The position numbers were made by a program, and so were the translations under genes. The notes under the pieces were generated by a model. It searched no databases and had not been told where the DNA came from. It worked only from the letters and a program-made list of their open reading frames with translations. From Desulfobacterales bacterium (GTDB lineage: Bacteria > Desulfobacterota > Desulfobacteria > Desulfobacterales > Desulfosalsimonadaceae), in the NCBI GenBank assembly GCA_034520365.1, contig JAXHNP010000006.1, positions 923,001 through 987,000 of the forward strand: a stretch of DNA of 64,000 bases, in the 5' to 3' direction. Below are positions 17,831 through 27,350 of this stretch, in pieces (position 1 is the stretch's first letter; each line of letters begins with the position of its first letter).

Positions 17831-20161
17831 ATGAAAACCGACCTTAACGGGGATACGGGAATACAAGCAGGCAGTGCCCCGGCTGCCCGAAAGATTGTTG
17901 TCACGGGTATCGTCCAGGGGGTCGGCTTTCGGCCGTTTATATATCAGCTGGCCATTAAGCACAACCTGAGCGGCCGGGTAGCCAACACCGCCTCGGGCGT
18001 GAGCATTCATGTGGAAGGCGATCCTTCACAGATTGAGGCGTTTCTATCGGATATCTCCTCAAAAACCCCGCCGCTTGCCCGGATCACCGATATTTCCAGC
18101 CGCTCTCTATCCCCTGAAAATTTAACGGATTTTACCATTTCCCCAAGCGAGGCCGGCGCGGTCAAATCCACGCTGATATCCCCGGATATTTCCATCTGTT
18201 CGGATTGCCTGGCGGAGCTGCTTGATCCCAAAGACCGCCGGTATCGGTATCCGTTCATTAACTGCACCAACTGCGGGCCCAGATATACGATTATCGATGA
18301 TATTCCCTATGATCGACCGAATACCTCTATGAAGCATTTTAAAATGTGTGAAGCCTGCCAGGCGGAGTATGAGGATCCTCAAAATCGGCGGTTTCATGCC
18401 CAGCCCAATGCCTGTCCGGTTTGCGGGCCGCAGGTGCAGCTGTTTGACCGGCACATGACTGAAATCCCCTCCGGCGATCCGGTCAGCGAAACCGTCCGCC
18501 TGTTAAAACAAGGCTTTATCGTAGCGGTTAAAGGTCTGGGCGGGTATCATCTGGCTGTTGACGCTGAAAACCCTGAGGCGGTGCATGCGCTCCGGCAGCG
18601 AAAGCACCGGGCAGAAAAGCCGTTTGCCTTAATGTCTCTTGATTTGGAAACCATCCGGCAGTATGCACAGGTTGCAGATGATGAAGAAAAAATGCTTGCA
18701 TCCCCGCAGCGGCCCATTGTCTTTTTAAAAAAGCGCAGCAGCCACTGTATTTCAGATGCGGTTTCCCCGGAAAACCGGTATTTTGGCGTGATGCTGCCCT
18801 ATACGCCGCTGCATTATCTGCTGCTCGCCCATGGTTTTACCGCGCTTGTGATGACCAGCGCCAATTTAAGCGAAGAGCCGATTGTCATTGCCAATGACGA
18901 GGCGTTTGACCGCCTTTCCCATATTGCCGACTATTTTCTGATGCATAACCGGGATATTTATCTCCGAAGCGATGACTCGATCATGCGGCATACCGCCGGC
19001 AGTCCCCGGTTTGTCCGCCGATCCAGGGGATATGTGCCCACCCCCATATTTCTGCACCGATCCCTGCCGCCCATACTTGCCTGCGGTGCGGAGCTTAAAA
19101 ATACCATCTGCCTGACCAAATCCGACCAGGCGTTTTTAAGCCAGCACATCGGTGATCTGGAAAATATTAAAGCATTTGATTTTTTCAAAAAGACCATTTC
19201 GCATATGAAGCGGATCCTGGATATCGCACCGGAGATTATCGCCTATGATATGCATCCCGGGTATTTGAGCACCCGGTACGCGCTGGAACAGAGTGATGCC
19301 ACTTTGGTGCCGATTCAGCACCACCATGCCCACATTGTAAGCTGCATGGCGGAACATGGAATAGAAGGTCCGGTGATCGGGCTTTCCTTTGACGGCACCG
19401 GATACGGGACCGACGGCCGGATATGGGGAGGCGAATTCCTGATTGCGGAGCCGGCAAATTTTGAACGGCCGCTTCATCTGGCCTATATGCCCATGCCGGG
19501 CGGGGAGGCGGCCATCAAAGAGCCGTGGCGGATGGCGGTAAGCTATCTTTTCGAGACCTTTGGCGAGGAGTTTGAAAGCCTGGATCTGCCGGTTCTTAAA
19601 ACCATACCCGCAAGTAAAATCCGCATTATCAAAGATATGATCGTAAAACGCATCAATTGCCCGGAAACCTCGAGCCTTGGCCGGTTGTTTGACGCGGTGG
19701 CGTCCATACTGGGCCTTCGCCACCAGGTGAGTTTTGAAGGACAGGCGGCCATGGCCCTTGAAATGATGGCCCGCCAAAAGACCAATTATTTAAGTGCGCC
19801 CGACCTCTATGGGTATGATCTTTTCACCCGTGATGCCTGCGAAATTTCCGTACGCCCGATCATCAATGGAATCGTTAAAGATTTGAAAAAAGGAGTTCCG
19901 CCGGCTGAGATCAGTTCAAAATTTCATTTAAGCCTCATGAGCATTTACACGGACCTTTGCGGCCGGATGCGCAGTGAAACCGGCATTAATCAGGTGGTTT
20001 TGAGCGGCGGGGTATTCCAGAATGCCCTCTTGCTAAAGGGGCTGATTCAGGGGCTTGAACGGGAAGGCTTCCGGGTGTTTACCCAGCGCCAGGTTCCGAC
20101 CAATGACGGCGGCATTGCGCTGGGTCAGGCGGTGGCGGCGGCAGCCGCGGCAACCGGATAA
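17831..20161 (+). CDS. hypF: carbamoyltransferase HypF
   Basis: A 776-residue HypF, which makes thiocarbamate on HypE from carbamoyl phosphate as the source of the cyanide ligands. Domains in order: acylphosphatase (VTGIVQGVGFRPFIYQLA, about residues 25-105), two zinc-finger pairs (CSDCLAELLDPKDRRYRYPFINCTNCGPRYT and CEACQAEYEDPQNRRFHAQPNACPVCG, about 120-205), a YrdC-like domain (about 215-400, LKQGFIVAVKGLGGYHLAVDA) and a Kae1-like domain with metal-binding HHHAHIVSCMAEH (about 495). Length is normal. The gene lies 53 bases after hypC. Confidence 0.97.
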   Translation: MKTDLNGDTGIQAGSAPAARKIVVTGIVQGVGFRPFIYQLAIKHNLSGRVANTASGVSIHVEGDPSQIEAFLSDISSKTPPLARITDISSRSLSPENLTDFTISPSEAGAVKSTLISPDISICSDCLAELLDPKDRRYRYPFINCTNCGPRYTIIDDIPYDRPNTSMKHFKMCEACQAEYEDPQNRRFHAQPNACPVCGPQVQLFDRHMTEIPSGDPVSETVRLLKQGFIVAVKGLGGYHLAVDAENPEAVHALRQRKHRAEKPFALMSLDLETIRQYAQVADDEEKMLASPQRPIVFLKKRSSHCISDAVSPENRYFGVMLPYTPLHYLLLAHGFTALVMTSANLSEEPIVIANDEAFDRLSHIADYFLMHNRDIYLRSDDSIMRHTAGSPRFVRRSRGYVPTPIFLHRSLPPILACGAELKNTICLTKSDQAFLSQHIGDLENIKAFDFFKKTISHMKRILDIAPEIIAYDMHPGYLSTRYALEQSDATLVPIQHHHAHIVSCMAEHGIEGPVIGLSFDGTGYGTDGRIWGGEFLIAEPANFERPLHLAYMPMPGGEAAIKEPWRMAVSYLFETFGEEFESLDLPVLKTIPASKIRIIKDMIVKRINCPETSSLGRLFDAVASILGLRHQVSFEGQAAMALEMMARQKTNYLSAPDLYGYDLFTRDACEISVRPIINGIVKDLKKGVPPAEISSKFHLSLMSIYTDLCGRMRSETGINQVVLSGGVFQNALLLKGLIQGLEREGFRVFTQRQVPTNDGGIALGQAVAAAAAATG

Positions 20162-20279
20162 ATATTCCTTAATGGATAATTTTATGGTTTTATTAAAAAG
20201 GGTTTTATGTTATAAATTTGAACACTGATTATTATCGTAACCATTGTGCGCTTCTCTTTAACAGGCATTTCACGCCCAT

Positions 20280-21362
20280 ATGAAGCATATACAGGAATAC
20301 AGGGACAGCAGGCTTTCCCGGAGAATCATCGAGCAGATCGCAGCGGTCAGTGACCGTAATATCCGCATCATGGAAGTTTGCGGCACTCATACGGTCTCCA
20401 TTTTCAGAAACGGTATACGCACTGTGCTGCCGGAGAATGTCTCCCTGATTTCCGGTCCGGGCTGTCCGGTCTGCGTAACCGATCAGAGAGAAATTGATAC
20501 CGCCATCGCCCTGGCCGAACAGGAAAATGTCATCATAGCGACTTTCGGTGATTTGATCCGGGTGCCGGGCACCTTTTCCTCCCTTCAAAGTGAGCAGGCC
20601 GCCGGACGGGACATCCGGATCGTCTATTCCACTTTTGATGCCATTACCCTGGCCAAAGAAAATCCGGGAAAGAATGTCGTCTTCCTGGGTATCGGATTTG
20701 AGACCACCGCCCCGACAATTGCGGCCTCGGTTTTGGCCGCGGAAAAAGCCGGCATTACAAACTATTTTGTCTATTCGGCCCATAAGTTGATGCCCCCGGC
20801 GCTTGAAGCCCTCATGGATCTGGGCGTCAGCCGGATTGACGGGTTTCTGCTTCCCGGCCATGTCTCGGTCATCATAGGCACGAAGGCGTATGCCGAATTT
20901 TTCGAAAAATATCGTATCCCCTGTGTGATAACCGGCTTTGAGCCGGTGGATATCCTTCAGGCGCTGTTTAACCTGACTGAGATGATTAATACCGGTTTGC
21001 CCCGGCTGGAAAACGGCTATCCCAGGGCGGTTACGGAAGCCGGCAATACCGGCGCGATAGAAATTATGTATTCCGTATTTGAGCCCTGCGATGCCTCCTG
21101 GCGGGGGATCGGCCGGATCTCCGGCAGCGGGCTTCGATTCCGGCCGGATTATGCATCGTTTGACGCAAAAGCCTATTTCGATCCGTATGTGCCTGAGGCG
21201 ATGCCGCCCAGGGGATGCGCCTGCGGCGATATTTTGACCGGGACGTTAACCCCTCCGGAATGCCCGCTTTACAAGAAAAAATGTACACCCGTAAATCCGG
21301 TGGGGCCCTGCATGGTCTCAAGCGAAGGCACCTGTGCGGCTTACTATAAGTACCACGACTAA
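20280..21362 (+). CDS. hypD: hydrogenase maturation protein HypD
   Basis: A 360-residue Fe-S scaffold on which the Fe(CN)2CO unit is built together with HypC. Family motifs seen: EVCGTHTVSIFRNGIR, SGPGCPVCVT with its two cysteines (about 66-69), GFETTAPT, LLPGHVSVIIG, GFEPVDIL, and the 4Fe-4S cysteines in the C-terminal region (RGCACGDILTG..PPECPLYKKKCTP). It ends 9 bases before hypE. 118 bases separate it from hypF. Confidence 0.97.
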   Translation: MKHIQEYRDSRLSRRIIEQIAAVSDRNIRIMEVCGTHTVSIFRNGIRTVLPENVSLISGPGCPVCVTDQREIDTAIALAEQENVIIATFGDLIRVPGTFSSLQSEQAAGRDIRIVYSTFDAITLAKENPGKNVVFLGIGFETTAPTIAASVLAAEKAGITNYFVYSAHKLMPPALEALMDLGVSRIDGFLLPGHVSVIIGTKAYAEFFEKYRIPCVITGFEPVDILQALFNLTEMINTGLPRLENGYPRAVTEAGNTGAIEIMYSVFEPCDASWRGIGRISGSGLRFRPDYASFDAKAYFDPYVPEAMPPRGCACGDILTGTLTPPECPLYKKKCTPVNPVGPCMVSSEGTCAAYYKYHD

Positions 21363-21371
21363 TACCTGACT

Positions 21372-22382
21372 ATGGATCAAAACAGAATACTTCTGGATCA
21401 CGGCAGCGGCGGCAAGCTTTCAAATGATTTGATTGCGGAGCTCATGCTGCCGGCATTTGACAATCCGGTGCTTGCCGGGATGGAAGATGGCGCGTCAATA
21501 AGCCTGGATGGCTGCCGGCTGGCTTTTTCGACGGATTCCTATGTTGTGGATCCCATTTTTTTCCCCGGCGGCAATATCGGCGATCTGGCGGTAAACGGCA
21601 CCATCAATGATGTGGCCATGTGCGGAGCCGCGCCGCTCTATTTAAGCGCCGGCATTATTATCGAGGCGGGATTTCCAAAGGCTGATTTAAAGGAGATTCT
21701 GGCGGCCATGGGTAGCGCCGCCAAGTCGGCCGGCGTCCAGATCGTGACCGGCGATACAAAGGTGGTGGCCCAGGGGGTGGCGGACAAGATTTTTATCAAC
21801 ACCTCCGGCATCGGCATAATTCCCGAGTCTGTACAAATTTCTGCCGCCAACGCCAGGGCCGGGGATAAAATTATTTTAAGCGGTACGCTGGCCGACCACG
21901 GCATGGCGGTTTTATCCCGCCGGGAGGGGCTTGAATTCGAGTCCCCGATTCAAAGCGACAGCGCGGCCTTAAATCATCTGGTGCGGCGGATGTTTGAGGT
22001 TTGCCCGGATATTCATGTGCTCCGGGATCCCACCCGCGGCGGGGTGGGCACGGCTTTGAATGAGATCGCCGGCCAGTCAGATATCGGCATCCGGATATAC
22101 GAGAATTCAATTCCCATAAACAACAGCGTGGCCGGCCTATGCGAACTTCTGGGGTTTGACCCGCTCTATGTGGCCAATGAGGGTAAACTTTTGGCATTCG
22201 TCGAAAGCAAATATGCGGATTCGGTCGTAAAAGCCATGAATGCCGATCCGCTGGGCCGGGCGGCCTGCGTGATCGGCGAGGTGGTGGGGGATCACTCCGG
22301 TAAAGTCATAATGGAAACCGCTATCGGCGGAGAGCGTATCATTGATATGCTGACCGGCGAGCAGCTGCCGCGGATCTGCTGA
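21372..22382 (+). CDS. hypE: carbamoyl dehydratase HypE
   Basis: A 336-residue PurM-like enzyme that dehydrates the S-carbamoyl group on its C-terminal cysteine to thiocyanate. It has LLDHGSGGKLSNDLI near the start, STDSYVVDPIFFPGG, GDTKVV and RDPTRGGVGTALNEIA, and it ends in PRIC with the modified cysteine last. It directly follows hypD. Confidence 0.97.
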   Translation: MDQNRILLDHGSGGKLSNDLIAELMLPAFDNPVLAGMEDGASISLDGCRLAFSTDSYVVDPIFFPGGNIGDLAVNGTINDVAMCGAAPLYLSAGIIIEAGFPKADLKEILAAMGSAAKSAGVQIVTGDTKVVAQGVADKIFINTSGIGIIPESVQISAANARAGDKIILSGTLADHGMAVLSRREGLEFESPIQSDSAALNHLVRRMFEVCPDIHVLRDPTRGGVGTALNEIAGQSDIGIRIYENSIPINNSVAGLCELLGFDPLYVANEGKLLAFVESKYADSVVKAMNADPLGRAACVIGEVVGDHSGKVIMETAIGGERIIDMLTGEQLPRIC

Positions 22383-22465
22383 TACGGTTTTCTTTTTTGA
22401 TAAAGGGGTGTTTTAGGCATGTATGTTAAATGCAATGTTGCCTGACAGGTGAAAGGAGAGGGTCA

Positions 22466-23428
22466 ATGGATGAAAAAGAAAAGCAGGAACAAGAGTTTTA
22501 TGAAAGACTAGAGAAAAGAGGGGTCACGCGTCGGGACTTTATGAAGTTCTGTACGTTTCTGACCGCAACCATGGGGCTGTCGGCTTCATATGTCGCCAAG
22601 GTGGCGAACGTGTTTGCCGCAACCCCGAAACGCACACCGGTTGTCTGGCTTCATTTCGCCGAATGCACGGGATGTACGGAATCAGTTTTGCGGACCATGT
22701 ATCCCTGGGTTGATGAGCTGGTACTGGAAATCCTGAGTATTGAATACCATGAGACCATCATGGCGGCGGCCGGCCACCAGGCGGAAGAGAACCTCCAGGA
22801 GGCCCTCAAGAAATACAAAGGTGAGTTTATCTGCATCTGCGAGGGCGCGATCAGCACCAAAGACGGCGGTGTGTACGGCAAAATCGGCGGCCGCACGTTT
22901 CTGGAAGTCGCCAAGGATGTCGTCCCCAAAGCCGCGGCAGTGGTTGCCATCGGGCAATGCGCCTGCTACGGCGGGGTACAGGCGGCGGCCCCCAATCCGG
23001 GCGGATTTAAGGGGGTAAAAGAGGCGCTTAATCTAAAGCGAAGAGAAATTATCCATCTCCCCGGCTGTCCGCCGAACCCGATCAATTTGGTGGGCACTGT
23101 TGCCAACTACCTGCTGTTTAATAAACTGCCGCAGCTCGATTCCGTCGGCCGCCCGCTGTTTGCTTATGGCAAGACCATCCATGATCAATGCCCGCGGCGT
23201 TCTCATTTTGAAATGGGCGAGTTTGCCCCATCCATCGGATCTCCGGAAGCAGATATGGGTTGGTGTCTGTATGAGCTTGGCTGCCGCGGCCCCATGACCT
23301 ATAACAATTGCCCGACAGCTAAATATAATGACGGGACCAGCTGGCCGGTGGAAGCGGGACATCCCTGTATCGGCTGCAGCGAGCCGAATTTCTGGGACTA
23401 TCTGTCGCCGTTTTATCAACCCATGTAA
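22466..23428 (+). CDS. periplasmic [NiFe] hydrogenase small subunit
   Basis: A 320-residue Fe-S subunit of a group 1 uptake hydrogenase. The start at 22466 is set by AAAGGAGAGGG just upstream. A Tat signal (TRRDFMKF, arginines at 22-23) with a hydrophobic stretch ending VFAA sends the folded complex to the periplasm. The proximal cluster has AECTGCTES and IGQCACYGG and LPGCPPNP; the distal has IHDQCPRRSHFE and CLYELGC; the medial has NNCPTAKYN and PCIGCSEPNFWD, with proline in place of one cysteine, the pattern of a [3Fe-4S] medial cluster. It is followed after 48 bases by the large subunit. Confidence 0.96.
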   Translation: MDEKEKQEQEFYERLEKRGVTRRDFMKFCTFLTATMGLSASYVAKVANVFAATPKRTPVVWLHFAECTGCTESVLRTMYPWVDELVLEILSIEYHETIMAAAGHQAEENLQEALKKYKGEFICICEGAISTKDGGVYGKIGGRTFLEVAKDVVPKAAAVVAIGQCACYGGVQAAAPNPGGFKGVKEALNLKRREIIHLPGCPPNPINLVGTVANYLLFNKLPQLDSVGRPLFAYGKTIHDQCPRRSHFEMGEFAPSIGSPEADMGWCLYELGCRGPMTYNNCPTAKYNDGTSWPVEAGHPCIGCSEPNFWDYLSPFYQPM

Positions 23429-23476
23429 AAAACGGTTATCAAAAATTACAACCCGTTTTCATAGAGAGGGAATACC

Positions 23477-25117
23477 ATGAGCAAACGAATTACCATCGAT
23501 CCCATGACCCGGCTTGAGGGTCATCTAAAAATCGACGTGGAGGTTGAGGACGGAAAAGTTAAAAACGCCTGGAGTTCGGGTCAGCTTTTCCGGGGAATTG
23601 AAATCATTCTGCAGGGCCGGGACCCGCGGGATGCCCATCATTTTGTCCAGCGCTCATGCGGGGTCTGTACCTATGTCCATGCGCTGACCTCGGTCCGTGC
23701 GGTGGAAGATGCCATCGGCATTGATATCCCGGAAAATGCAAAGCTGGTGCGCCGGCTGCTGCACGGGGCCCAGTTCATGCATGATCACATTGTCCATTTT
23801 TACCATCTGCATGCGCTCGACTGGGTGGATGTGGTCTCCGCATTAAAAGCCGACCCCCAGAAGACCGCCAAGCTGGCAGATAATCTTTCCAATGCGCCCT
23901 GGGGCGGCACCACCTATTACAAGGGTGTCCAGGATCGCTTGAAAACCTTTGTGGAAAGCGGGCAGCTGGGCATTCTAAATAACGCCTACTGGGGTCACAG
24001 CGCGTATAAGCTGCCGCCGGAGGCCAACCTGATGGCAGCGGCCAATTACATCGAAGCTTTGCGGTTGCAGGCCAAAACCGCCCGACTGCATGCAATTTTC
24101 GGCGGCAAGAACCCCCATCCGCAGTCCCTGGTTGTGGGCGGCGTCTCATCGATTAAGGATTTGACAGCGGATCGGATTCTTGAGTTCAAGTACATCTGGC
24201 AGGAATCCCAGGATTTTGTGAAAAACGTCTATATTCCGGATCTTCTGGCGGTTGCCTCCTTCTACAAAGACTGGGGCGGCATCGGCGGTACCACCAATTT
24301 CCTGTCCTGGGGCGATTTTGCCCAGAACGGCAAGGAGCCGGAGAGCTATCTGATGCCGCGCGGGCTCATCAAAGACAGGGATTTAAAAAATCCGCATGCT
24401 GCGGATCAGCAAAAGGTAACCGAGCATGTGACCCACGGCTGGTATGCCGACGGCGAGGCCAAGCATCCCTATGATGGGGAGACCAAGCCGGTGCCCGGCG
24501 ATTACGACATGGAAGGCAAATACACCTGGTTCAAGGCGCCGCGCTATGACGGCCAATCCTGTGAAGTCGGTCCGCTGGCGCGCGTCCTGGTGGCCTATGC
24601 CAATGGGCAGCCGGCAGTTAAAGAAAATGTGGATGCGGTGCTTAAAAAGCTTGATGTTCCGGCCAGCGCCCTTTTCTCGACCCTTGGCCGAACCGCCGCC
24701 CGCGGCATTGAAACCCTGATCATCGGCGAAGCCATGGCCGGCTGGATCGATGAACTGGTGGCGAATGTGGGCCGCGGCGATAAAAAAGTCTACCAGAAAT
24801 ATGAAATGCCGGATGAAGCCATGGGATACGGATTAAACGATGTCCCCCGCGGCGCGCTGGGACACTGGATCAAAATTAAAGATAAAAAGATTGCCAACTA
24901 CCAGTACGTGGTGCCGTCTACCTGGAACTTCGGGCCGCGCTGCGCCAAGGGCACGCTCGGACCGGTTGAGGAATCCCTAATCGGCACCCCGATCGCCGAC
25001 CCGAAAAAACCATTGGAACTGCTTCGAACCGTTCACTCTTTTGACCCATGCATTGCCTGCGGCATTCATGTGATCGATCCGGATTCCAACGAGGTGTATC
25101 AGGTGCGGGCGACTTAA
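23477..25117 (+). CDS. [NiFe] hydrogenase large subunit
   Basis: A 546-residue catalytic subunit. The nickel-binding L1 motif RSCGVCTYVHALTSVRA is near residue 57 and L2, DPCIACGIHV, near the C-terminus. Both L2 thiols are ordinary cysteines (TGC codons), so this is a [NiFe] and not a [NiFeSe] enzyme. Residues after the last His (VIDPDSNEVYQVRAT) form the peptide removed by the maturation protease two genes downstream. No cytochrome b subunit gene follows, so electrons probably pass to soluble cytochrome c, as in Desulfovibrio-type periplasmic enzymes; this is inference. Confidence 0.97.
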   Translation: MSKRITIDPMTRLEGHLKIDVEVEDGKVKNAWSSGQLFRGIEIILQGRDPRDAHHFVQRSCGVCTYVHALTSVRAVEDAIGIDIPENAKLVRRLLHGAQFMHDHIVHFYHLHALDWVDVVSALKADPQKTAKLADNLSNAPWGGTTYYKGVQDRLKTFVESGQLGILNNAYWGHSAYKLPPEANLMAAANYIEALRLQAKTARLHAIFGGKNPHPQSLVVGGVSSIKDLTADRILEFKYIWQESQDFVKNVYIPDLLAVASFYKDWGGIGGTTNFLSWGDFAQNGKEPESYLMPRGLIKDRDLKNPHAADQQKVTEHVTHGWYADGEAKHPYDGETKPVPGDYDMEGKYTWFKAPRYDGQSCEVGPLARVLVAYANGQPAVKENVDAVLKKLDVPASALFSTLGRTAARGIETLIIGEAMAGWIDELVANVGRGDKKVYQKYEMPDEAMGYGLNDVPRGALGHWIKIKDKKIANYQYVVPSTWNFGPRCAKGTLGPVEESLIGTPIADPKKPLELLRTVHSFDPCIACGIHVIDPDSNEVYQVRAT

Positions 25118-25179
25118 ACCTAAATTGATCGTTCCAAATTTTTAAAATATAGATTTTTGCATTCTTTATCCTTTTCGGT

Positions 25180-25196
25180 CCCCCTTTAAAAGGGGG
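25180..25196. terminator. CCCCCTTTAAAAGGGGG hairpin
   Basis: A short palindrome downstream of the large-subunit gene, a minimal version of the G/C-tract repeat seen elsewhere. It may attenuate transcription before the protease gene. AGATTAAGAGTAAG-type repeats follow (about 25214-25240). Confidence 0.4.
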
Positions 25197-25248
25197 ATCG
25201 AGGGGGATTTTAGATTTAGATTAAGAGTAAGGGTAAGACGGGAAGGTT

Positions 25249-25746
25249 ATGGCAGAACCGCATATTGTGATAATGGGCGTGGGCAGTATTCTGATGACGG
25301 ATGAAGGGTTTGGCGTCCGCGTGATCGAGGCCCTGGAAGAGCAGTATGAGTTTCCGGAAAACGTTTCCGTGGTGGACGGCGGGGTCCTGGGATTGAATCT
25401 TCTGGGCGTGATTGCGGAAGCCGATCACCTGATTGTTGTGGATGCGGTTCGCAACGGGGGCGCGCCCGGGGATTTCTATCGATTAACCGGTGAGGCCATC
25501 CCCGAGCGGGTTCGCGCCAAGAATTCCCTCCACCAGATCGATTTTCTGGAAACCCTGACCCTGTGTCAGGCAGTGGATGAAGTGCCGGAGACGGTGGTTC
25601 TGGGCGTCGAGCCCGAAGATATTGATTCACTGAGTGTTGAGCTGACCCCCACCATTAAGGAACGGGTTGAGCCGGCCATTGAAATGGTGCTGGACGAGCT
25701 GAATCGGCTGAATACATCGTATACCCGCAAAGCAGAGCAGAAATAA
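25249..25746 (+). CDS. hydrogenase maturation protease (HyaD/HybD family)
   Basis: A 165-residue endopeptidase that removes the large-subunit C-terminal peptide once nickel is in place. It has the family opening GVGSILMTDEGFGVRVIEAL (nickel-binding Glu/Asp near residues 18-20), VVDGGVLGLNLLG, VVDAVRNGGAPG with the second acidic ligand, and the His-containing SLHQIDFLETL. The gene is downstream of the structural genes and separated from them by about 130 bases of repeats. Confidence 0.95.
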   Translation: MAEPHIVIMGVGSILMTDEGFGVRVIEALEEQYEFPENVSVVDGGVLGLNLLGVIAEADHLIVVDAVRNGGAPGDFYRLTGEAIPERVRAKNSLHQIDFLETLTLCQAVDEVPETVVLGVEPEDIDSLSVELTPTIKERVEPAIEMVLDELNRLNTSYTRKAEQK

Positions 25747-25877
25747 TAGGTTTCAGGTGTCAGGTTTCAGGAAATATTATGCGAGGGAGTCAAAATTTTT
25801 GTAAGCCTGAACACTGAACACTGAAACCTTAACCTTTTAATTTTACACCTAATACCCTATACCTTAACCGTTAAGTC

Positions 25878-26118
25878 ACTTAGAAGTATTCCCCCCGGGC
25901 CGTGCGCCCGGGACCGAGCTAAAAATAACTTTAAAGGCACTGAGGCAAGATAAACTTGTTCTATCTATTTTTCAGGCGGGCACGGTGGCCCGCCCTACGA
26001 ATGGGGAAAAACCCGATTCATCGTAGGGTCGGCCACCGTGCCGACCATAAATCCTTGATTTCATTAACCTAATACCTAATACCCAAAACCTAATACCTGT
26101 GAAGTCATTTCGAAGAGT
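25878..26118. repeat. long composite palindromic repeat, copy 1 (inverted orientation)
   Basis: The core 25975-26046 forms a hairpin of more than 20 base pairs: GGCACGGTGGCC...CCCTACGA with its complement around an ATGGGGAAAAACCCGATTCA loop. It is flanked by a GCACTGAGGCA-like piece, a CCCGGGCCGTGCGCCCGGG palindrome and AATACCTAATACC short repeats. Copies in the other orientation lie at 30204-30455 and 48504-48745. It lies between convergent gene ends; bases 25747-25877 hold GGTTTCAGGTGTCAGG-type short repeats. Confidence 0.8.
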
Positions 26119-26123
26119 CCCCC

Positions 26124-26471
26124 TCAGTCCGCAATATCGATTGACACCACGTTCAGTTCATTTCCGGCGATAATATCGAATTCCATGCTTTGGCAAGCCG
26201 GGCATATGTAAACCGCTTCCGCCACTTCCCATTGATGGCCGCATCCACTGCATTTTGCGGTTACCGGTATCTCATTGATATGGATTTGCGCCCCTTCCAG
26301 CGGCGTGTCCTTGGCCGCCACTTCCATGCAGAGATTCAAATTCTCCGGTACCACCGCCGCCAGTTTGCCGATTTTCAGATTAATCTTCTCCACCCGGGAA
26401 TCCCTCATATCCGCGGGTATGGACGCCCGGGCGACTTCAACGATTTGCAGCGCAATTCCCATTTCATGCAT
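26124..26471 (-). CDS. hypA: hydrogenase nickel-incorporation protein HypA
   Basis: A 115-residue nickel chaperone. The start is at MHEMGIALQIVE, where His2 binds nickel; the frame is open 14 codons upstream, but the true N-terminus must expose MHE. The zinc site is CSGCGHQ...CPACQS (about 74-94). It faces the hydrogenase operon (convergent). Its usual partner gene hypB is not in the window. Confidence 0.95.
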   Translation of the reverse strand: MHEMGIALQIVEVARASIPADMRDSRVEKINLKIGKLAAVVPENLNLCMEVAAKDTPLEGAQIHINEIPVTAKCSGCGHQWEVAEAVYICPACQSMEFDIIAGNELNVVSIDIAD

Positions 26472-26744
26472 CTGGCTACCCCCGAAGGAGTTAACCGGCG
26501 ATTTGGCCCTCAATTTAGGTTGGATAAATTTGGCGCCGGTTGTTTCGTTTCTATGTGATCAATACCGCTTGAACGTTTGGGAACAACTATATTCCTCAAT
26601 GAAGCGGTTGCCAAGAGGAATTCACAATTGAGGCCCTCAAAGGCATCTATGCCATCTGTGTTTGTAAGAAGCTATGTTTTGAGTTATAGTTTAATAAAAT
26701 ATTCGGAAGTTAAAATCTTTGAAAAATGAGAAGGAGGTATGAAA
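26472..26744. other. divergent spacer between hypA and the selenoprotein gene
   Basis: About 270 bases with AT-rich promoter-like sequence towards the selenoprotein gene and the ribosome-binding site GAAGGAGGT at 26730-26738. No gene or RNA element was recognised. Confidence 0.4.
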
Positions 26745-26957
26745 ATGGCGGACAAGGTGATTATTTACGGCAAAAGCGGATGACCCTATACCCAGCGGGC
26801 TCGTGAAGCCTATAAAGGGCATGAATATGTTGATGTAAAAGCCAATAAAGATAAGATGGATGAGATGCTCAAGGTCTCAGGCGGCAAGCGCCAGGTGCCG
26901 GTAATCGTGGACGGGCAGAACGTGACCGTCGGCTACGGCGGAACGTGAGGGGTATAG
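26745..26957 (+). CDS. small glutaredoxin-like selenoprotein with two in-frame UGA codons
   Basis: The ATG at 26745 has AGAAGGAGGT in front. Read through UGA as Sec, it gives 70 residues: MADKVIIYGKSG-U13-PYTQRAREAY, then VDVKANKDKMDEML, GGKRQVPVIVDG and a C-terminus GYGGT-U68-GV before TAG (26955-26957). The fold pattern is that of glutaredoxin: a beta strand into the active site, a cis-proline VPVIV segment and a final Gly-rich turn. Sec replaces the first Cys of CPYC, and the second Cys is absent. It resembles the Uxx-type glutaredoxin-like selenoproteins of anaerobes, from memory. Ordinary gene callers stop at residue 12. The selenocysteine machinery is not in this window. The first Sec is well supported, the second probable. 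Confidence 0.82.
26781..26820 (+). promoter_or_regulatory. bacterial SECIS-like hairpin after first UGA
   Basis: Counting U of UGA as base 1, the apical stem GGCT/AGCC spans bases 18-30 with loop CGTGA. G23 and U24 of the loop fall at the same positions as the SelB-contacting G23-U24 of the E. coli fdhF element. An outer CCCTATA/TATAAAGGG pairing is possible. Confidence 0.65.
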
Positions 26958-26980
26958 CCTTTCAGGCGGGTCTGCCTGAA
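26946..26980 (+). promoter_or_regulatory. possible second SECIS or terminator hairpin
   Basis: After the second UGA (26946-26948) and 12 further bases comes the stem TTCAGGC/GCCTGAA with loop GGGTCT, strikingly like the AGGTCT loop of the fdhF element. It lies beyond the TAG stop. It is followed by AAAGTTTTT, so it could instead, or also, be a terminator. Confidence 0.5.
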
Positions 26981-26995
26981 AAGTTTTTAAGTAAA

Positions 26996-27350
26996 TTCAA
27001 GCGCCTTTGGCTTTGGCAAAGGCTAATAAAAAAGGCAGCTTCCTTTAAGTCCCCCTTTCGTAAAAGGGGATTTAGGGGGATTTTTCATCATGGCCCAATA
27101 TAAATCCCCCCAATCCCCCCTTTTCCAAAGGGGGGCTGAGGTGGTAGCCTTTTCCAAAGGGGGGGGTTAGGTGGTAGTCTTTTTCAAAGGGGGGGGTAGA
27201 TGGTGGCCTTTTCCAAAAGGGATTCAGGTGGTGGCATTTTTCAAAGGAGGTGCGGCACAGCTTACGGTTTCCCCCTTGAAAAATTCACTGCCTTAGTGCC
27301 TTAGTGCCTTAGTGCCTTAGTGCCTCAGTGCCTTAGTGCCTCACTGCCTA
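26996..27350. repeat. composite G/C-tract repeat (inverted) and tandem TGCCTTAG repeats
   Basis: 26996-27250 is an inverted relative of 5018-5190, with an expanded tandem array of a roughly 30-base unit (AAGGGGGGCTGAGGTGGTAGCCTTTTCC type, four degenerate units). At about 27290-27350 comes a tandem array of GTGCCTTA, about seven units. No gene is present between the selenoprotein and the cyclophilin. Confidence 0.75.

Follow-up and report, generated by a model that had tools for sequence, protein, structure and literature searches.

A UXX-star family 1 gene predicted to encode two selenocysteines, with a putative second SECIS beyond its stop codon, in a Desulfobacterales genome

The closest described relatives of the gene analyzed here are the small glutaredoxin-like selenoproteins of the UXX-star group. 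In the available part of a 2026 review (PMC13188914), Table 1 lists "Distant Grx-like protein 1 (UXX-star selenoprotein family 1)" under NF041114 with the motif UxxT and a number of selenocysteines (Sec) of 2; the review attributes family 1 to PMC2398784 and cites Haft and Tolstoy 2025 for related UXX-star families, of which family 2 is given a single Sec. The available part of PMC9312934 likewise lists "Distant Grx-like protein 1, UxxT", while no mention of a two-Sec glutaredoxin-like protein was found in the available part of PMC2398784. The same table of the review contains a selenoprotein glutaredoxin (PF00462, UxxC), and the available text assigns SECIS elements in the 3' untranslated region (3'UTR) to archaea and eukaryotes, not to bacteria. 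Because NF041114 is listed there with two Sec, the double-Sec reading has already been published. What we describe is therefore a gene find in a catalogued family with a known complement of two Sec, and not a new kind of system. The name UXX-star most likely refers to the C-terminal U-x-x-stop with which these genes end.

The window, the whole 64,000-nucleotide stretch of DNA that was analyzed, holds a gene of this type, and its reality is confirmed (Table 1). Reading through both UGA codons gives MADKVIIYGKSG-U-PYTQ...VPVIVDG...GYGGT-U-GV, closed by TAG. UPYT occupies residues 13 to 16 and fits the UxxT motif, and the gene ends in UGA-GGG-GTA-TAG (26946-26957), i.e., the C-terminal Sec codon, two residues, and the stop. 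The gene would hold two recoding events in 213 bases, the first with its hairpin within the coding sequence and the second with its hairpin beyond it. When UGA counts as a stop, as in the standard code, no open reading frame of at least 30 amino acids in the list for the window spans the gene, and the sole in-frame one listed within it is a 30-residue frame at 26856-26948. The earlier note, made from the letters of the window, had described a tiny glutaredoxin-like gene with two in-frame UGA codons, each followed by a SECIS-like hairpin, with loop bases G23-U24 in the first and the second lying past the stop codon. All of these features were found again on inspection. The note had also pointed to a resemblance to Uxx-type glutaredoxin-like selenoproteins, which profile searches bore out: NF041114 matched residues 5 to 70 over its full length (positions 1 to 70 of 70) and scored 114 bits, the cut-off being 72.

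Table 1. Selenoprotein gene of the window and its associated signals
Feature	Position in window	Strand	Remarks
Shine-Dalgarno sequence AAGGAGG	26731..26737	+	7 nt 5' of the ATG at 26745; read directly
UXX-star family 1 selenoprotein gene, 70 residues	26745..26957	+	TAG stop at 26955-26957; NF041114 match
UGA codon 13, predicted Sec in the UPYT active-site motif	26781..26783	+	U or C among homologues
SECIS-like hairpin 1, GGGCT-CGTGA-AGCCT	26797..26811	+	Loop G23-U24; third-base covariation in homologues
UGA codon 68, predicted C-terminal Sec of the U-x-x-stop motif	26946..26948	+	Read-through and homologue codons
SECIS-like hairpin 2, TTTCAGGCG-GGTC-TGCCTGAAA	26960..26981	+	Wholly in the 3'UTR, past the TAG; also fits a terminator pattern

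The same profile matched all 32 members of alignment A1 with E values of 1e-10 or better, and the Pfam glutaredoxin profile PF00462 scored 36.7 bits (gathering score, 22.9). Nothing separates the window gene from family 1, with which it shares a score over the curated cut-off, the UxxT motif, the C-terminal U-x-x-stop, and two Sec codons. UXX-star families 2 and 3 and the HUGP/GUXX-star fusion (NF041211, NF047338, and NF045501) are related (E values of about 1e-14), but the window protein scored 52 to 54 bits against their cut-offs of 97 to 325, and family 2 differs further in the single Sec listed for it. The UxxC selenoprotein glutaredoxin has in common with the window protein the glutaredoxin fold and Sec at the first active-site position; it carries one Sec and a resolving Cys, whereas the window protein has T in place of that Cys and a predicted second Sec near the C terminus.

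A search of the genome for selA, selB, selC, and selD, proposed in the earlier note, was positive throughout. Matches over cut-off were found for selA (623 bits; cut-off, 268), selB (361 bits; cut-off, 242), selD (382 bits; cut-off, 125; one in-frame TGA), and tRNA-Sec with the anticodon TCA (78 bits; gathering score, 47).

The two UGA codons were then compared with the corresponding codons of homologues, which came from 47 loci in genome contigs and from other genomes of this class, where 171 of 389 genomes had a match over cut-off, a further search gave more, and the best-scoring 60 regions were taken for reading. Among 138 non-identical genes, sites 1 and 2 were U/U in 123, C/U in 14, and U/W in 1; 10 further family genes outside the search pattern, read by hand, were U/U (7 genes) or C/U (3 genes). 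The U/C alternation that had been suggested as a check was therefore present at site 1 and absent at site 2, where the codon was TGA in 137 of the 138 genes and TGG in the remaining one, and where Cys occurred in 0 of the 148 genes read. In the exception (L005:5-214), TGG (Trp) stands at site 2 and is followed by GV and UGA; this may reflect either a sequencing error or a genuine substitution. In another locus (L039:3001-3250), an in-frame TAA lies shortly 5' of the second UGA and no stop directly follows Uxx; this is perhaps a decaying copy.

A stop codon was found two codons past site 2 in 129 of 138 genes (TAA in 57, UGA in 44, and TAG in 28; the remaining 9 have other codons there), and neither TAA nor TAG was found at site 2 in any of the 148 genes. 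This indicates that ribosomes read through UGA 68 and usually terminate two codons on, and an ordinary stop at UGA 68 was rejected on the latter count. In 43 of 137 genes (e.g., L004, L006, L009, L011, L015, and L020), the stop 9 nt 3' of the Sec UGA is itself UGA, L005 being the 44th case of a UGA stop. For comparison, other open frames of at least 100 codons in the same loci stop with TGA in 218 of 404 cases, a rough figure that includes spurious frames. A third Sec at this UGA (U-x-x-U) was considered and rejected; by eye, the downstream sequence varies between genes, and whatever the stop, the hairpin keeps its distance of about 25 nt to the second UGA. Together, these comparisons support at both sites the double-Sec reading that the earlier note had wanted tested, and the window protein, which lacks Cys, very probably has Sec at both positions.

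Hairpin 1 lies within the coding sequence, and its loop, CGTGA, carries G and U at positions 23 and 24 counted from the U of UGA, which we take to be the position found in E. coli fdhF. Among 124 genes with Sec at site 1, base 23 was G in 98% and base 24 was U or G in 99%. The Arg codon CGT was used in 86 of these 124 genes versus 4 of the 14 Cys genes. Bases 21 and 27, which are usually third codon positions, were T-A in 71 and C-G in 46 of the Sec genes, and one or other of these pairs was present in only 3 of the 14 Cys genes. After clustering at 85% identity, bases 21 and 27 formed Watson-Crick pairs in 97 of 103 Sec representatives, compared with 51.5 on average and at most 70 in 2,000 permutations, in which the effect of relatedness remains.

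At site 2, only sequence past the stop codon was considered. A stem of at least 5 bp with its loop centered 20 to 29 nt from the UGA was present in 104 of 114 representatives, compared with 24.3 in dinucleotide shuffles and 41 of 218 other UGA stops in the same loci; no such hairpin was in place after site 2 in the remaining 10. All 104 post-stop hairpins had G-U or G-G in the loop versus 28 of 74 control hairpins. Gap-free, unselected pairing over the 114 representatives peaked at a center of 25.0 nt with 55.3% (permutation mean, 43.9%; maximum in 200, 49.6%), with a slight excess over the permutation maximum also at 27.0 and 28.5 nt and a value about equal to it at 22.5 nt. The median spacing was nearly independent of the stop codon used, at 25 nt for UGA (n = 37), 25 nt for TAA (n = 49), and 24.5 nt for TAG (n = 21 representatives).

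Covariation was scored in two subsets that were picked after the folds had been seen and given hand-drawn structures, which favors the scores. In a structure-blind alignment of 58 such sequences, 82.4% of the cells were paired versus 59.7% in shuffles, and the covariation score was 0.575 versus 0.210 for shuffled and at most 0.143 for slid controls; 34 chosen post-stop segments without that of the window scored 0.533 (shuffled, 0.211; slid, at most 0.170). RNAalifold found no consensus structure on the MAFFT alignment of all 114 post-stop stretches because this alignment is too gappy. Given the selection of the subsets and the lack of a structure in the full alignment, we regard the alignment-free counts as the main evidence at site 2.

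Proof of a SECIS from the window alone was sought and abandoned. The stretch after site 1 was matched or exceeded in folding by 99 of 200 shuffles (z = 0.22) and that after site 2 by 25 of 200 (z = -1.29). A hairpin-only model built from 34 homologues, with the window left out, ranked hairpin 2 first of 13 hits within 26501-27300 and 44th of 47 over the whole 64 kb, and when the window was searched against Rfam with gathering scores as thresholds, only a riboswitch and no SECIS family was matched. Since the hairpins of the window are unremarkable by themselves, their significance rests on the homologues.

Structure prediction agreed with the profile matches. The AlphaFold model, with Sec entered as Cys, had a pLDDT of 88. 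Glutaredoxins headed the Foldseek matches, one of which had an E value of 0.001 or better, and structure comparison returned thioredoxin-like, NrdH, and glutaredoxin chains at Z scores of 8 to 9, with glutathione S-transferase (GST) and MglA/SspA folds of the same superfamily scoring nearly as high as glutaredoxins (Z of about 8). Residues 3 to 66 of the model align with residues 1 to 67 of E. coli Grx3 (VIA-align 2). By this model, the product is a minimal glutaredoxin fold, thioredoxin-like. The fold over residues 3 to 66 is shared with classical glutaredoxin 3 and NrdH-redoxin, but the window protein lacks CxxC and any Cys, and its chain ends at residue 70. A classical dithiol glutaredoxin was therefore rejected, UPYT standing where CxxC would be expected. 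Lack of Cys is common in the family: from residue 4 on, none is encoded in 114 of the 123 U/U genes. Eight genes (L017, L021, L032, L033, L036, L038, L041, and L042) are longer, with an insert ahead of PLFGGTU or PIFGGTU and with CPFC, UPFC, or UPYV motifs; they retain the C-terminal UGA and resemble a sister subfamily.

How far UGA 68 could be something other than a Sec codon turns largely on hairpin 2. It fits a rho-independent terminator pattern, with AGTTTTTAAG following it, and Cys never replaces site 2 in homologues; both points would suit an arrangement in which UGA 13 alone encodes Sec, UGA 68 is an ordinary stop, and hairpin 2 ends transcription. A plain stop, however, would alternate with TAA or TAG, which it did in none of the 148 genes, and it would not explain a stop exactly two codons on in 129 of 138 genes, nor the tight distance of the hairpin from UGA 68 and the G-U or G-G of every post-stop loop. 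Moreover, a T-tract follows only 8 of 108 homologous hairpins, that of the window included, so that termination would be an extra of the window locus, where one hairpin could act in both ways; for the same reason, we rejected the view that hairpin 2 is nothing but a terminator. We consider a stop-only UGA 68 very improbable. It is highly likely, from the sequence comparisons, that the gene is a family 1 member in which UGA 13 and UGA 68 both encode Sec, each directed by a hairpin, the second of them beyond the stop. SelB and tRNA-Sec would read both codons, each under the direction of a short hairpin with G-U or G-G in its loop about 22 to 26 nt downstream, and the hairpin for UGA 68 would act from past the stop codon.

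What the two Sec would do is a separate question. As the window protein lacks Cys, Sec13 and Sec68 are the only residues that could form a bridge within the chain. In the scheme that we put forward tentatively, as plausible though somewhat short of probable, Sec13 would attack an oxidized substrate, Sec68 on the C-terminal tail would resolve the intermediate by forming a diselenide between residues 13 and 68 (in C/U homologues, a selenenylsulfide between Cys13 and Sec68), and a cellular reductant would then reduce the bridge. The earlier proposal that Sec68 replaces a missing resolving Cys may hold within this scheme but is weakened: in 7 of the 138 members a Cys occupies the resolving position (CPFC in 4, UPFC in 3), and all 7 retain the C-terminal UGA. 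The persistence of U at site 2 in these members, and in those with C at site 1, would also suit a pair that binds a metal, a metalloid, or a selenium species with no disulfide-type redox turnover, and the available text of PMC13188914 allows that Sec of UXX-star proteins may serve as metal ligands or interact with unknown substrates. Such a role is rather unlikely given the glutaredoxin fold with the active-site residue at its usual place, the absence of an evident metal-handling neighbor around a gene that stands alone between hypA-like and cyclophilin-like genes, and the resemblance of the most recurrent neighbors of homologues, by sequence reading, to PTS and LOG-family genes. Alternatively, Sec13 alone could act as in monothiol-type, glutathione-dependent glutaredoxins, with another role for Sec68, such as substrate docking. 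Monothiol glutaredoxins lack the resolving residue, as does UxxT, and the model can be aligned only as far as residue 66 (67 in Grx3), which would place Sec68 just past the presumed GGxD glutathione-binding loop. Ordinary glutaredoxins, however, carry a helix after the glutathione-binding loop, for which a chain ending at residue 70 has no room, and the near invariance of Sec68 (137 of 138) suggests a chemical role. We judge this option improbable as well, to much the same degree.

The less familiar features of the locus are a putative second SECIS in the 3'UTR and, in homologues, a UGA that would be read as Sec and then as stop 9 nt later. It is likely that in those 43 of 137 genes one mRNA uses the same codon in opposite senses and that the SECIS which decides between them is confined to the 3'UTR. 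The spacing of hairpin 2 suits the first UGA of the pair, its loop center lying about 25 nt from the Sec UGA and about 16 nt from the stop. If this is true, these genes are a natural test bed for the precision with which SelB and a hairpin pick one UGA, and such recoding would yield a protein that has two Sec and, in most members, lacks Cys. No mention of a post-stop second SECIS or of UGA reused as stop was found in the available parts of PMC13188914, PMC2398784, PMC9312934, and PMC1914089, and we make no claim of a first report. Genes of this type are missed where UGA is read only as a stop, and annotation would gain from their recognition. They also offer a compact model for SECIS spacing and diselenide chemistry.

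The neighbors of the window gene, hypA-like on its upstream and cyclophilin-like on its downstream side (names by sequence reading), both lie on the minus strand, so the selenoprotein gene stands alone. hypA is a nickel maturation gene. Over the 72 homologue loci with neighbors, the most recurrent were, upstream and divergent, PTS enzyme I-like (24 loci) and HPr-like (20 loci) genes and, downstream, a LOG-family-like gene (20 loci), all named by sequence reading; these gave no help with function. By the same kind of reading, a hydrogenase cluster occupies 17831-26513 of the window, with hypF, hypD, hypE, small and large subunits, a maturation protease, and hypA; the large subunit ends in DPCIACG and is of the Cys type, not the Sec type. 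The riboswitch of the Rfam scan is a c-di-GMP-I-GGC element at 1711-1806 (65.5 bits). Downstream of the selenoprotein gene, 27050-27350 is of low complexity and contains inverted repeats of C runs and G runs as well as a short tandem repeat of the CCTTAGTG type.
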